DNA from: Rufibacter hautae | GTDB lineage: Bacteria > Bacteroidota > Bacteroidia > Cytophagales > Hymenobacteraceae | Direction: 5' to 3' | Length of the DNA: 64,000 bases | Assembly: GCF_008271695.1 (NCBI RefSeq) | Contig: NZ_VKKY01000001.1 | Location: 2,102,589 to 2,166,588, forward strand | Shown here: in pieces, positions 56,388 through 61,334 of the stretch | Numbering within the stretch: the first letter of the stretch is position 1 | Layout: each line of letters starts with the position of its first letter | Notes under the pieces: generated by a model | Databases searched by the model: none | What the model was told of the DNA's origin: nothing | What the model saw: the letters and a program-made list of their open reading frames with translations, nothing else | Program-made: the position numbers and the translations under genes

Positions 56388-56852
56388 TTACAGGATGTCT
56401 ACCTGGCGGGTGATGCTTTCTTCCAAAGAAATGAAAGTTTCGGTGCGTTCCACGCCTTCAATAGCCTGTATTTTCTCGTTCAACACCTCGCGCAGGTGCA
56501 GGGTGTCACGGCAAATGATTTTGGCAAACATGCTCCACTGGCCAGTGGTGTAGTGCATCTCAACAATCTCGGGTACTTGCCGCATAGAGGTAACCGCCGT
56601 CTGGTACGCTGAGCCTTTCTCCAGGTAGATACCAATAAAGGCGCAGATGTCATAACCTACCGCGTTGGGGTTGATGAAGAGGTGCGATCCTTTGATCACC
56701 CCTAAATCCTCCAACTTCTTCATGCGCACGTGTACGGTACCCCCAGAAACTTGTAATTCTTTGGCAATGTCTGTGTAGGCTCTGGTAGCATCTAGCATCA
56801 GCATGGAAAGAATTCTTCTGTCAAGATTGTCAATTTCTGAAACTTGGGCCAT
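56388..56852 (-). CDS. Lrp/AsnC-family transcriptional regulator
   Basis: The 154-residue protein has the AsnC-type HTH (LDRRILSMLMLDATRAYTDI, AKELQVSGGTVHVRMKKLED) and the C-terminal RAM/ACT-like effector domain (ICAFIGIYLEKGS, MHYTTGQWSMFAKII, IQAIEGVERTETFISLEE). It is divergent, by 161 bp, from the asparagine synthetase-like gene. By the classic E. coli precedent AsnC-asnA, and by position, it probably controls that gene in response to an amino acid. The shared AT-rich gap has a candidate operator. Confidence 0.9.
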   Translation of the reverse strand: MAQVSEIDNLDRRILSMLMLDATRAYTDIAKELQVSGGTVHVRMKKLEDLGVIKGSHLFINPNAVGYDICAFIGIYLEKGSAYQTAVTSMRQVPEIVEMHYTTGQWSMFAKIICRDTLHLREVLNEKIQAIEGVERTETFISLEESITRQVDIL

Positions 56853-57013: not shown

Positions 57014-57967
57014 ATGGAAGGTGATTTGATTGAAGAGCTAGATGTGAGCCTGGAGGCAACTTTGGCCCAATTGCGAGGCGAAGCTACCATTGATGTGCTC
57101 AAAGTCCAGCAGGCCATCATTAGGGCTACGCACCAGTTCATGTTTGAGCGTGGCTTGGTGCAGGTCATGCCCCTCATGCTCTCGCCTATCACAGACCCCT
57201 TGAACCATGGGGTGGTAGATGCGGCCATCTCCTATGCCGGATGCCGCTGGAGCCTCACCAAGTCCATGATTTTTCATAAACAGTTGGCGCTCTTGAACCC
57301 AGACCTGGAGGCTTTGTATATTGTGTCACCTAATGTTCGTTTGGAGTTTGCCGACCGTGCGTTTACGGGCCGTCACCTGTTTGAGTTCACCCAAGTGGAC
57401 TTTGAGTTCCGTGACAAAGAAGGGGCCTTTGTGCGTTCGTTCATGGAAGACCTGCTCCGCTACCTGTTTGCGGCCGTGCAGCGCGACCTACCCGAGGTGC
57501 TGGCCAAATACCGCCCCCAAGGGCTGTGCCAGATAGGCGAACTAGAGATTTTCCGCACCGAGGACCTGGAGGCGCAGTACGGCCCGGAGTATGAGCATGT
57601 CAAGTCCAAGGAAGCTTTGCTGCCTTTCTGGCTCCTGAACCACCGCCGCGAGTTCTATGACAAAGAAGACCCCACCAAGCCGGGCACGTACCTGAACTAT
57701 GACCTCATCTGGCCCGAGGGGTTCGGGGAGGGGTTGTCCGGGGCCGAGCGCGAGAACGAGTACCACCAGATCCGGAAACGGATGGAGGAGACCGGCGCGA
57801 ATCAGGAGGCGTTCAAGCATTACTTGGAAGTGGCTAAAAAAGGATTGCCGCATTCCGCCGGGGCGGGCTTTGGCGTAGAGCGCATGGCCCGGTTCATTTG
57901 CCGCGTCAAAGACATCAATGACGTGGCTTTGTTTCAGCGTAGGCCCGGAATGCCAGCACTTTTCTAA
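57014..57967 (+). CDS. Archaeal-type asparagine synthetase A (class II aaRS-like catalytic core)
   Basis: The 317-residue protein is the catalytic core of aspartyl/asparaginyl-tRNA synthetase without the anticodon-binding domain. Class II motif 2 reads FTGRHLFEFTQVDFEFRDK and motif 3 GAGFGVERMARFIC, with the ATP-binding Arg. Loss of the tRNA-binding domain fits the archaeal asparagine synthetase AS-AR, which makes asparagine from aspartate and ammonia with ATP. An unrelated aminoacylation role cannot be excluded. It is divergent from an AsnC-type regulator, which supports the amino-acid-synthesis reading. Confidence 0.7.
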   Translation: MEGDLIEELDVSLEATLAQLRGEATIDVLKVQQAIIRATHQFMFERGLVQVMPLMLSPITDPLNHGVVDAAISYAGCRWSLTKSMIFHKQLALLNPDLEALYIVSPNVRLEFADRAFTGRHLFEFTQVDFEFRDKEGAFVRSFMEDLLRYLFAAVQRDLPEVLAKYRPQGLCQIGELEIFRTEDLEAQYGPEYEHVKSKEALLPFWLLNHRREFYDKEDPTKPGTYLNYDLIWPEGFGEGLSGAERENEYHQIRKRMEETGANQEAFKHYLEVAKKGLPHSAGAGFGVERMARFICRVKDINDVALFQRRPGMPALF

Positions 57968-58037: not shown

Positions 58038-58153
58038 TTTCATTTCACCGTAACCTCTCCGATATTGGGGCGCCATTCCTGTTGGGGCGGCAGTACGGAA
58101 ACCAGAGGCATAAGCCATCATCCAATGAGCTTTCCCTCGTTAACTCCATCTCC

Positions 58154-60046
58154 ATGAGTACGCACAAGCATTTCATCATTGACTTTGACAGTACCTTCAC
58201 CAAGGTAGAGGCCCTGGACGAACTTTGCGCCATCTGCATCCCAGACCCGGCCCGCCGGCAGAAAGTACTCACCGAGATCCAGCGCATCACCGATCTGGGC
58301 ATGGAAGGCGAGATTCCCCTAGTGGACTCCCTGGACCAGCGCCTGGCCCTGCTCAGCGCCAACCGTGACCACCTAGACACCCTCATTGAGCACCTGCGCG
58401 GCCAAATCTCTGAGTCGTTTAAGCATAACAAGGCCTTTTTTGAGGCGTTCAAAGACGATATCTACATCATCTCCAATGGGTTCAGGGAATTTATTGTGCC
58501 CATTGTGCGGGAGTTGGGCGTGAAGCCCGAGAACGTGTTCGCCAACAGCTTCACGTATGACGAGAACGGCAACATCACCGGGTTTGACCGCGACAACGTG
58601 CTCACCCAGAACCAGGGCAAAGCCAAACAGATCAAGAGCCTGAACCTGCCCGGCGAGGTCTACGTCATCGGGGACGGATACACTGACTACGAGATCAAAG
58701 AAGCCGGCATCGCCGATAAATTCTACGCGTTCACCGAGAACGTGAGCCGCGACAGCGTAGTAGGCAAAGCCGACCACGTGACACCCAGCCTGGACGAGTT
58801 CCTGTACGTGAACAAACTGCCCAGCGCACTTTCCTACCCTAAGAACCGCATCAAAGTGCTGGTGTTGGAGGGCATCCATGAGCGAGCCATCAACATGTTC
58901 CGGCAGGAAGGGTACCAGGTGGAGATAATCGCAGGGGCGCTGGAAGAAGACGAATTGTGCGAGCAACTGCACGATGTATCCATCCTCTGTATCCGGTCCA
59001 AGACGCAATTAACCGCCAAAGCCCTGGCGCACGCGCCGCGTCTGATGGCGGTAGGCGCCTTCTGCATCGGGACAAACCAGATAGATCTGCAGACCTGCAC
59101 CGATCGCGGCATCATCGTGTTTAACGCGCCTTATAGCAATACCCGCAGCGTAGTGGAGATGGCCATCGGGGAGATCATCATGCTTTCCCGCGGACTGGTG
59201 GAGAAAAGCAACCGCCTGCACGAGGGTGAATGGGATAAATCGGCCAAAGGCTCTAACGAGATTCGGGGCAAGAAACTGGGCATCATCGGGTACGGCAATA
59301 TCGGGTCGCAGCTTTCGGTCTTGGCCGAGAGCCTGGGCATGGAGGTTTACTTCTATGACGTGGTAGACAAGCTAGCCTTGGGCAATGCCAAAGTCTGCCA
59401 TTCCCTGGCCGAACTGTTGGCCCTGGCGGATATTGTGACGCTGCACGTAGACGGCCGTGCCGCCAACAAGAACATCATCGGGACGAAGGAGTTTGAGCTT
59501 ATGAAGCCGGGTGTGCTGTTCCTGAACCTGGCCCGTGGCCACGTGGTGGACATCGAGGCCTTGGCCGAGAACATCAAAAGCGGCAAGATCAGGGGCTGTG
59601 CTGTGGATGTGTTCCCGTATGAGCCCAAGAACAACCAGGAACGCTTTGCATCGGCGCTCCGCGGCTTGCCCAATACGCTGTTGTCGCCGCACGTGGGCGG
59701 CAGCACCGAGGAAGCCCAGGAAAACATCGCGCAGTACGTGCCGTCCAAGATGATCGATTACATCAACACCGGCGGTTCTTACAACAGCGTGAACTTCCCT
59801 AACCTGCAGTTGCCGGCGCTGCGTAACGCGCACCGCCTCATCCATATTCACCGCAACGTACCGGGTATCCTGGCCAAGATCAACAACGCTCTAGCCGATA
59901 ACCAGATCAACATCCTGGGTCAGTACCTGAAAACGAACGAGACCATCGGATACGTGATCACAGACGTGGACACCAAGTATGACCGCTCCGTGATTCAACA
60001 GCTGAAGCAAATCCCGGATACCATCAAGTCCCGGACGCTCTACTAA
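58154..60046 (+). CDS. serA: Fused phosphoserine phosphatase-phosphoglycerate dehydrogenase
   Basis: The 630-residue protein (ATG at 58154; the frame stays open further upstream) joins two enzymes. The N-terminal HAD phosphatase (1-225) has DFDST with D10 and D12, motif II IISNGF, motif III Lys in NQGKAKQIK and GDGYTDYE with D174 and D178, as in SerB. The C-terminal D-3-phosphoglycerate dehydrogenase (about 230-550) has GYGNIG (379-384), LNLARGHVVD and the catalytic His513 in SPHVGGST. A final ACT domain (about 555-630, NVPGILAKINNALADNQINI) is a likely serine sensor. One chain thus holds steps 1 and 3 of serine synthesis, with step 2 (SerC-like) next door. Confidence 0.92.
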   Translation: MSTHKHFIIDFDSTFTKVEALDELCAICIPDPARRQKVLTEIQRITDLGMEGEIPLVDSLDQRLALLSANRDHLDTLIEHLRGQISESFKHNKAFFEAFKDDIYIISNGFREFIVPIVRELGVKPENVFANSFTYDENGNITGFDRDNVLTQNQGKAKQIKSLNLPGEVYVIGDGYTDYEIKEAGIADKFYAFTENVSRDSVVGKADHVTPSLDEFLYVNKLPSALSYPKNRIKVLVLEGIHERAINMFRQEGYQVEIIAGALEEDELCEQLHDVSILCIRSKTQLTAKALAHAPRLMAVGAFCIGTNQIDLQTCTDRGIIVFNAPYSNTRSVVEMAIGEIIMLSRGLVEKSNRLHEGEWDKSAKGSNEIRGKKLGIIGYGNIGSQLSVLAESLGMEVYFYDVVDKLALGNAKVCHSLAELLALADIVTLHVDGRAANKNIIGTKEFELMKPGVLFLNLARGHVVDIEALAENIKSGKIRGCAVDVFPYEPKNNQERFASALRGLPNTLLSPHVGGSTEEAQENIAQYVPSKMIDYINTGGSYNSVNFPNLQLPALRNAHRLIHIHRNVPGILAKINNALADNQINILGQYLKTNETIGYVITDVDTKYDRSVIQQLKQIPDTIKSRTLY

Positions 60047-60061
60047 GGAGTAGCAAGGTTC

Positions 60062-60109
60062 TCTGGTGTTTTGGGGCTGTTTTCATGAAAGTAGACTCAA
60101 AGCGTCAGA
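60062..60109. repeat. Dispersed palindromic repeat R20
   Basis: TCTGGTGTTTTGGGGCTG is followed by TTTTCATGAAAGTAG and ACTCAAAGCGTCAGA. Outer arms TCTG and CAGA pair. It lies 16 nt after the serA stop and 9 bp before R21. Confidence 0.6.
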
Positions 60110-60118
60110 GGAAAAATT

Positions 60119-60180
60119 AAAAGCAAGAGCCGTTTTAAGGCTGTTTTCCAGGAAACGGCGGCAAAACGGCTCTTGCTTTT
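60119..60180. repeat. Dispersed palindromic repeat R21 with an 18-bp outer stem
   Basis: AAAAGCAAGAGCCGTTTT (60119-60136) pairs exactly with 60163-60180 around the family core AGGCTGTTTTCC/AGGAAACGGCGG. It is followed by T-rich sequence and can work as a terminator for serA, making the serC-like gene partly independent. Confidence 0.82.
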
Positions 60181-60257
60181 AAGCCTTTCTTCCTGCTTTA
60201 AGCTACATTTCCTTTTCATTCACTCAATCTCTCCACCATCCATACACTCATTCAAAA

Positions 60258-61334
60258 ATGGCTTCTGTTTATTTCACTCCCGGCCCGGCGCAACTGTACC
60301 CCACGGTGGCAGGGCATTTGCAAAACGCTTTGGACCAGCAGGTGTTCTCCCAATCGCACCGCAGCCAAGCGTTCAAAGACCTGTACCGCCGCGCCGACGA
60401 AGGCTTGCGGGCGCTGTTCGGGTTGCCCCAGGATTATGCCATCTATTTCACCGGATCGGCCACCGAAATCTGGGAACGCAGCCTGCAGAGTCTGACTTCT
60501 GAGCGCACCTATCACCTGGTGAACGGCTCCTTTTCCAAAAAATACCTGGACCACGCCAAGTGGCTGGGTCGCGATGCGCAGGTTTTGCAGGTTCCGTTTG
60601 GGCAGGGGTTTGCCATTGACCAGGTGCAGGTGCCCGCCGGGACCGAGTTGCTGGCCATCACGCAGAACGAGACCAGCTCCGGCGTCTGTGTACCCGTAGC
60701 CGACATCCACCTGCTGCGGGAAAGAAATCCTGAGCCATTGATCTCCGTGGACATTGTGTCTGGGGCACCCTATGCACCGCTGGATTTCTCCCAAATAGAC
60801 ATGGCTTTCCTGTCGGTGCAGAAGGGGTTTGGCTTGCCGGCCGGTTTGGGGGTTTGGTTTGTGAACGAGCGCTGCCGCACCAAAGCTGCCCAACTGGAAG
60901 GGAAGCAGTATACTGGCGGTCACCACAGCATCGCCTCTCTGCAGGACCAGTACCAGGGCTTCCAGACGCCCAGCACGCCCAACGTACTGGATATTTACCT
61001 GCTGGCCCACGTGGTGGAAGACATGCTGGCCAAAGGCCTGGACGTAATCAGGCAAGAAACCGAAGCCAAGGCCCAGCAGCTCTATGGTTTTCTGGAAGAG
61101 AGCGCCTTGTTCTCTCCCTTCGTGCAGGAGAAAGCGCACCGCTCCCCCACGGTGATAGTCGCCGATGTGCTGGAAAGGCCAGCCGCCGAAATTATTTCTA
61201 TATTAAAAAAACAAGGGAATATAGTAGGAAGCGGATATGGAGCATTCAAAGACAAACAGATCAGAATAGCCAATTTTCCGGCTATTTCAGGGCAGGAAGT
61301 AGAGGGTTTAATCCAACTGCTGAAACGGCTATAA
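60258..61334 (+). CDS. serC: Class V aminotransferase, phosphoserine aminotransferase (SerC-like)
   Basis: The 358-residue PLP enzyme starts ASVYFTPGPAQLYPT, a SerC-like opening. It has the phosphate-binding segment FTGSATEIWERSL, the Asp-containing strand SVDIVSGAPYAPLDFSQID, the PLP-binding Lys189 in AFLSVQKGFGLPAGLG and the C-terminal QIRIANFPAI. It would convert 3-phosphohydroxypyruvate and glutamate to phosphoserine. Sequence is divergent from E. coli SerC, but the position directly after the serB-serA fusion supports this role. R20 and R21 lie between the two genes. Confidence 0.85.
   Translation: MASVYFTPGPAQLYPTVAGHLQNALDQQVFSQSHRSQAFKDLYRRADEGLRALFGLPQDYAIYFTGSATEIWERSLQSLTSERTYHLVNGSFSKKYLDHAKWLGRDAQVLQVPFGQGFAIDQVQVPAGTELLAITQNETSSGVCVPVADIHLLRERNPEPLISVDIVSGAPYAPLDFSQIDMAFLSVQKGFGLPAGLGVWFVNERCRTKAAQLEGKQYTGGHHSIASLQDQYQGFQTPSTPNVLDIYLLAHVVEDMLAKGLDVIRQETEAKAQQLYGFLEESALFSPFVQEKAHRSPTVIVADVLERPAAEIISILKKQGNIVGSGYGAFKDKQIRIANFPAISGQEVEGLIQLLKRL

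Follow-up and report, generated by a model that had tools for sequence, protein, structure and literature searches.

Textbook feedback acts on the first committed enzyme of a pathway. Can a single sensor also reach the last one? This question is raised by a gene of Rufibacter hautae (Hymenobacteraceae) that joins a HAD-IB phosphatase to a SerA-type phosphoglycerate dehydrogenase with an ACT domain. The gene lies in the window analysed here, the whole stretch of 64,000 nucleotides (G000:C1:2102589-2166588 of the 5.84-Mb genome). We think it quite likely that its product is a bifunctional enzyme that catalyses steps 1 and 3 in the phosphorylated pathway to serine, and that serine sensing by the ACT domain is passed to both halves. 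Judging from its sequence, the fusion should have both activities; serine control of the phosphatase half is predicted, and is the least certain part of the proposal.

A HAD phosphatase, SerA and an ACT domain on one chain

A single uninterrupted open reading frame (ORF) at 58154-60046 (+) encodes one chain of 630 residues, organised as follows.

58154..60046, + strand: fusion gene, HAD-IB phosphatase and type II phosphoglycerate dehydrogenase with ACT, 630 residues
58154..58819, + strand: HAD-IB phosphatase domain, residues 1-222 (D10, D12, E19, M50, R63, S107, K156, D174, D178)
58793..58831, + strand: junction, residues 214-226, 13 residues long in 54/54 aligned fused or shortened relatives
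58832..59149, + strand: SerA substrate-binding domain, first half, residues 227-332, with R281-S282-K283 (E. coli R60-S61-R62)
59150..59728, + strand: NAD-binding domain, residues 333-525, with R461, E490 and H513 (E. coli R240, E269 and H292), absent from shortened relatives
59729..59827, + strand: substrate-binding domain, second half, residues 526-558
59828..60043, + strand: ACT domain, residues 559-630, with H566, N568 and N586 (E. coli serine ligands H344, N346 and N364)

The initial annotation had placed a HAD phosphatase ahead of a SerA dehydrogenase with a C-terminal ACT domain, and this order was borne out by the single frame and by the Pfam and NCBIfam matches. In Pfam, Hydrolase and HAD (both above cut-off) fall inside residues 5-180, 2-Hacid_dh covers 235-547, 2-Hacid_dh_C 340-515 and ACT_AHAS_ss 562-625. 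In NCBIfam, the chain passed the phosphoglycerate dehydrogenase family PRK11790 (NF008759; 637.7 bits over residues 225-630, cut-off 404) and the HAD-IB family TIGR01488 (58.7 bits, cut-off 45); its sole equivalog-level match is to phosphoglycerate dehydrogenase. The presence of a HAD phosphatase, SerA and ACT on one chain in this bacterium, with a complete type II dehydrogenase at residues 227-630, is confirmed. An in-frame TTG at 58082 would allow 24 more codons, and the start in relatives lies approximately at the ATG. The predicted model of the fusion had a predicted local distance difference test (pLDDT) score of 87.5 and a predicted template modelling (pTM) score of 0.73.

The dehydrogenase half and its serine site

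Mapping on E. coli SerA showed that the catalytic residues R461, E490 and H513 and the substrate residues R281-S282-K283 are all present. The E. coli counterparts R60, R240, E269 and H292 were placed by hand on the E. coli SerA alignment, with numbers and roles that we take to be correct. In an alignment of 31 rows (30 fusions and one shortened form, described below), the dehydrogenase residues were kept in 30/30 fusions and the serine ligands H566, N568 and N586 in all 31 rows. A wider set had dehydrogenase and ACT sites intact in 42 of 42 fusions. Together with the phosphatase residues considered below, the checked motif residues were all in place, by alignment and by mapping on E. coli SerA, in agreement with the earlier claim about the catalytic residues that could be located in the two halves.

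In E. coli SerA, according to the accessible part of the source, H344, N346 and N364 are the serine ligands, serine bound at the ACT interface inhibits by making the substrate-binding/ACT unit rotate relative to the NAD domain, and the ACT domains are also a subunit interface (PMC6300728). From this likeness, the dehydrogenase half would be expected to carry out serine-inhibited oxidation of 3-phosphoglycerate.

Shortened relatives lack the NAD domain and keep the serine site

Relatives were surveyed by frame length in 395 Bacteroidota genomes and by alignment in 296. This HAD family was found in 43 of the 395 (E <= 1e-20). By frame length these divided into 26 with fusions (627-687 residues), 11 with a shortened form (432-501) and six with stand-alone HADs (221-261), of which alignment confirmed 20, 11 and four, respectively, the remainder being classed on length alone. 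Full-length fusions were found in 26/395 genomes by frame length and in 20/296 by alignment.

The shortened form occurred in ten genomes of one family (f4), apparently Sphingobacteriaceae, as Mucilaginibacter groups with it in the tree, and in one genome of another family (G269), 11 of 395 in all. The gene, of about 430 residues, consists of the HAD domain joined to the equivalents of residues 225-332 and 526-630; the NAD-binding domain is gone. With a Mucilaginibacter sequence added to those of the 11 survey genomes, 12 shortened proteins could be compared. R281, S282 and K283 were each replaced in 12/12, H566, N568 and N586 were retained in 12/12, and the checked HAD residues were retained in every row that covered them. 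Mean identity between shortened proteins and fusions was 53% in HAD, 60% in ACT, and 30% and 40% in the first and second halves of the substrate-binding domain, compared to 56%, 66%, 69% and 62% among fusions. In the residue and identity comparisons, four rows (two fusions and two shortened forms) were without their first residues, as the ORF finder accepted ATG only; in one of these, L061, the HAD domain was present when read from further upstream.

The 12 shortened sequences formed one clade in both trees (Shimodaira-Hasegawa-like approximate likelihood ratio test, 100). For the second tree we removed L099 and L113, fusions cut by contig ends that had first been taken as stand-alone HADs; one of the ten SerA sequences in its outgroup was placed on the wrong side. 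Whether the clade nests inside the fusions was not settled by either tree. The shortened forms appear to derive from fusions because they share the junction and because their substrate-binding domain is split. The AlphaFold2 model (pLDDT 89.6, pTM 0.83) matched phosphoserine phosphatases and SerA in the PDB, and the shortened form therefore looks like a folded protein, not a dying gene.

Where does step 1 take place in these genomes? A SerA-like gene lay directly beside a SerC-like gene in all eight shortened-form genomes examined (of 11). Seven of these SerAs had 315-320 residues, and their alignment ended at fusion residue 526-539, short of ACT. The one short SerA that was scanned (L179) gave no ACT match, and its neighbour passes SerC cut-offs. 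The serC-linked SerA of G269 has 384 residues and a weak ACT match below cut-off. Type III phosphoglycerate dehydrogenases (PGDHs), as described in the accessible part of one source, are without ACT and show no serine regulation (PMC6300728).

A similar second SerA accompanies some fusions (INTERMEDIATES). Five of the 20 confirmed fusion genomes (G130, G134, G182, G234 and G271) carry a short SerA no more than about 1 kb away from a SerC match, and therefore the fusion is not the sole possible SerA everywhere. Twelve others belong to the same taxonomic order as the window, and none of them has a short SerA beside a SerC match when read by position; G088 has a SerC match without an adjoining short SerA, and G029 and G202 have no SerC match. 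A path from the fusion, through gain of a second SerA, to loss of the first is plausible. The simplest reading is that the fused dehydrogenase turned redundant and was lost, with the phosphatase and the serine sensor staying together.

How could one serine signal serve two active sites?

In the mechanism we propose, the C-terminal type II dehydrogenase would oxidise 3-phosphoglycerate, and the 3-phosphohydroxypyruvate would depart to be aminated by a SerC-type aminotransferase, probably the neighbouring gene P0002 or a paralogue. Phosphoserine would then come back to the N-terminal HAD phosphatase. No channelling between the active sites is implied, because step 2 sits elsewhere. Serine at the ACT-ACT interface (H566, N568, N586') would turn the substrate-binding/ACT unit, as in E. 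coli SerA; the turned unit would reduce dehydrogenase turnover, and the same movement would be relayed to the HAD phosphatase via the fixed-length junction. As the HAD domain is tied to the substrate-binding/ACT unit by a junction of constant length in the 54 aligned sequences, both active sites could feel a single movement driven by serine.

The shortened relatives suggest that the ACT domain may indeed control the phosphatase: a serine site kept without the dehydrogenase's moving partner is hard to explain unless its signal serves the phosphatase. Both enzymes could also work with ACT serving the dehydrogenase only, the ACT domain and substrate-binding remnant of the shortened form then being a dimerisation scaffold. 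We consider this rather unlikely. It would fit what the accessible part of the source describes for E. coli SerA, where serine inhibits through movement relative to the NAD domain, a domain that the shortened form no longer has, and where ACT is a subunit interface (PMC6300728). However, a scaffold need not retain ligand residues, yet all 12 shortened proteins keep H566, N568 and N586 and have replaced R281, S282 and K283.

For Sphingobacteriaceae and their kin it is close to an even bet that the fusion has turned into a serine-regulated phosphatase of a new kind. In this reading the emptied dehydrogenase would act only as a transmitter from ACT to phosphatase, step 1 would have moved to a separate SerA (too short for an ACT in seven of the eight genomes examined), feedback would fall on the last enzyme instead of the first, and the fusion of the window would represent the ancestral, doubly controlled state.

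Is the phosphatase half a phosphoserine phosphatase?

The closest PDB entries to the HAD half were 3kd3 (a phosphoserine phosphohydrolase-like protein) and human phosphoserine phosphatase. D10, D12, E19, R63, S107, K156, D174 and D178 were kept in 31/31 rows of the alignment and M50 in 30/31; the roles of these residues are presumed. The initial annotation had called for a search of the genome for a separate serB, and none came near the family cut-off of 144: the fusion itself was the top match at 60.7 bits and the runner-up reached 27.5. A second SerB candidate at C1:45095, the only other PF12710 match above cut-off, was rejected as a phosphoglycolate-phosphatase-like HAD, judged by sequence reading.

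TIGR00338 SerB above cut-off was found in 108 of the 395 Bacteroidota genomes, in 0/43 of those with this HAD and in 108/352 of the others. At E <= 1e-22, three of the 43 HAD genomes matched TIGR00338, G271 and G304 through the fusion itself and G190 through another frame, and the 11 shortened-form genomes gave no match. The HAD half thus appears to be a HAD-IB phosphatase that works like SerB, yet stands outside the TIGR00338 family.

It is improbable, in our judgement, that the HAD half acts on another substrate such as histidinol phosphate, with an unrecognised enzyme performing the last step to serine and the fusion serving co-expression only. Its score below the TIGR00338 cut-off would allow this, and in four bacteria histidinol phosphate has been assigned as the substrate of SerB-like proteins, according to the accessible part of one report (PMC5764234). 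Such a role is countered by the nearest solved structures, which are phosphoserine phosphatases, the human one included, by the standard SerB above cut-off in none of the 43 genomes with this HAD, and by the HAD staying with a serine-type ACT even after dehydrogenase loss.

A number of observations weigh against a bifunctional, serine-controlled enzyme. For the phosphatase half, the fusion failed TIGR00338 serB (59.6 bits, cut-off 144.15), and position 108, beside the motif residue S107, is variable (N in 4/17 rows, the window included, and G in 9/17). The co-absence of this HAD and TIGR00338 gives a Fisher p of 7e-7 with kinship ignored, and 244 of the 352 other genomes are likewise without a TIGR00338 match above cut-off. 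The additional match in the fusion genome G190, in another frame, scores 101.7 bits, below cut-off. No activity is reported for any member of the family in the open-access literature that we found. For serine control, the ACT domains of PGDHs are not always functional, as stated in the accessible part of one source (PMC6300728); ACT in the shortened form could be retained solely for oligomerisation; the fused dehydrogenase may be redundant in the five genomes with a serC-linked short SerA; and both trees gave long-branch warnings at the points of attachment of the shortened clade or of its neighbours.

Distribution of the fusion and its junction

Named loci were the best 80 of at least 581 relatives, among which Rufibacter immobilis was the closest at the fusion locus (96% across the HAD part). 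They comprised 74 one-frame fusions, four loci cut by contig ends, one split fusion (L071) and one shortened form (L146, Mucilaginibacter aquariorum); in five of the 74, the ATG-only ORF finder began at residue 50 and the HAD match extends further upstream. Fusions were found in Rufibacter, Pontibacter, Hymenobacter, Spirosoma, Echinicola, Chryseolinea and others; these six genera we take to be Cytophagales. They were also found in some Flavobacteriaceae (Salegentibacter, Gillisia, Gramella and Salinimicrobium).

The motif SYPK at the junction is invariant (31/31), and the HAD domain seems to be joined straight to the start of SerA, since a stand-alone SerA (L050) begins with the same SYPK. 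HAD and SerA are separate genes in some relatives (L065-L068; L047-L056). An annotation or assembly error joining two neighbouring genes is nevertheless refuted by the single frame in 74 of 80 named loci and by the junction, which is 13 residues long in every one of the 54 sequences aligned.

Some loci were unusual. In Rufibacter ruber (L071:6001-7892) a break inside the NAD domain, from sequencing error or a real change, divides the fusion into two frames, of 449 and 181 residues. A Latescibacterota metagenome-assembled genome has a fusion on a contig of 3.9 kb (L115:432-2339); as this fusion fell among those of Bacteroidota in the tree, it points to misbinning or transfer. Stand-alone HADs of 221 residues in G286 (L065:4520-5185) and G227 (L066:4523-5188) formed a long branch among Spirosoma-type fusions and were perhaps freed from a fusion; these genomes also carry 2-hydroxyacid dehydrogenase frames of 536 and 532 residues, respectively. 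A 1044-residue frame at L075 was rejected as a triple fusion, its front part lying opposite a 1166-residue frame on the other strand.

The neighbouring aminotransferase and the intergenic hairpin

Two features follow the fusion.

60117..60182, no strand assigned: long terminator-like hairpin in the intergene that separates the fusion from the aminotransferase
60258..61334, + strand: class-V aminotransferase P0002, SerC-like, 358 residues (PF00266)

The initial annotation described serine synthesis in two genes. A SerC-like aminotransferase (PF00266) is indeed next to the fusion, but P0002 scored below every SerC cut-off (serC_1, serC_2, serC_3 and PRK05355); its best score was 133.7 bits with serC_3 (cut-off 401.65), and a further model gave 94.4 (cut-off 253). 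It is not the sole SerC candidate in the genome, where no gene passed the PRK05355 cut-off and the only two matches were P0002 and a SerC-like paralogue with 38% identity to it (G000:C1:327128-328156; L190:2126-3187). Because of these scores, the paralogue and the strong hairpin between the two genes, P0002 is best called a candidate SerC, and a two-gene operon is no more than possible.

Folding of the whole intergene, which is 211 nt long, gives -71.3 kcal/mol (z -6.1). A scan for consensus terminators found four sites (5.0 expected by chance), none of them in the intergene, and a scan for promoters gave no site where chance alone would give 2.6. Exact matches to the hairpin tip GGCTGTTTTCNNGAAA (60075-60154) number 45 in the genome, including four pairs that are the two strands of one site, compared to none for the reversed control; in the window the tip occurs six times at <=1 mismatch (0.04 expected). 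The L204 copy has a long perfect hairpin followed by T, and other copies are less complete.

Of the 70 named loci with 1 kb or more of downstream sequence, 24 have a P0002-like gene no further than 700 bases beyond the fusion; with the limit widened to 4 kb, such a gene is present in 31 of the 65 loci that have 4.5 kb or more downstream. The link between fusion and aminotransferase is real but loose. In six fusion genomes (G072, G166, G273, G076, G111 and G194) the single SerC-like match, 34-39% identical to P0002, is on a different contig from the fusion. For Echinicola vietnamensis, the accessible part of the GapMind study describes a diverged, apparently essential SerC candidate, and by counted mentions it contains no SerB gap and does not mention the fusion (PMC7311316); the SerC candidate and the lack of a SerB gap fit this lineage.

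Upstream of the fusion, an AsnC/Lrp-type regulator (56388-56852, -) is divergent from a gene at 57014-57967 (+) that is AsnA-like by reading and matches only tRNA-synt_2 in Pfam.

Relation to known enzymes

The substrate-binding, NAD and ACT domains follow the same order as in E. coli SerA (1psd, 1yba), with which catalytic and serine-binding residues are shared, but no phosphatase domain is present in the E. coli enzyme. HAD-IB phosphoserine phosphatases (human PSPH, 1nnl; 3kd3) share the catalytic motifs and fold of the HAD half, although they stand alone, whereas here the HAD is fused ahead of SerA.

Mycobacterial ACT-SerB also combines phosphoserine phosphatase and ACT on one chain; serine inhibits it and is thought to act at the ACT domains, in the part of the source available (PMC10564941). 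A phosphatase of this type can therefore be open to inhibition by serine. In contrast to the fusion, where a C-terminal ACT would reach the phosphatase through SerA, the ACTs of mycobacterial SerB are N-terminal and outside any SerA body. The TIGR00338 SerB frames of other Bacteroidota, usually 400-500 residues, may be of this ACT-SerB kind.

Two serine-pathway enzymes share a chain in the oomycete and brown-algal fusion of PGDH and phosphoserine aminotransferase, as far as the accessible parts of two sources describe it (PMC5715807, PMC2705460), but there they catalyse the adjacent steps 1 and 2, unlike steps 1 and 3 here. The algal glycerol enzyme of Dunaliella (6iuy), PSP-GPDH (phosphoserine phosphatase and glycerol-3-phosphate dehydrogenase), likewise has an N-terminal PSP-type HAD on an NAD dehydrogenase, and the HAD halves match; it differs in its dehydrogenase and in catalysing consecutive steps, and no ACT is mentioned in the accessible part of its description (PMC7468427).

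Our search of the open-access literature brought up no paper about either a SerB-SerA fusion or the shortened form. Many public genomes carry the fusion, which annotators have probably noticed; what we would regard as new is the form emptied of its dehydrogenase and the link of that form to a SerA without ACT.

Implications

A bifunctional enzyme of this kind would explain the apparent SerB gap in the fusion-bearing Cytophagales that were searched, and a gene that matches only phosphoglycerate dehydrogenase at equivalog level. With the first and last enzymes tied to one serine sensor, how an allosteric domain changes its client becomes testable in a natural series: separate genes, the fusion, the fusion with a spare SerA, and the fusion emptied of its dehydrogenase. 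If true, serine feedback would have moved from the first to the last enzyme of the pathway in Sphingobacteriaceae and their kin.

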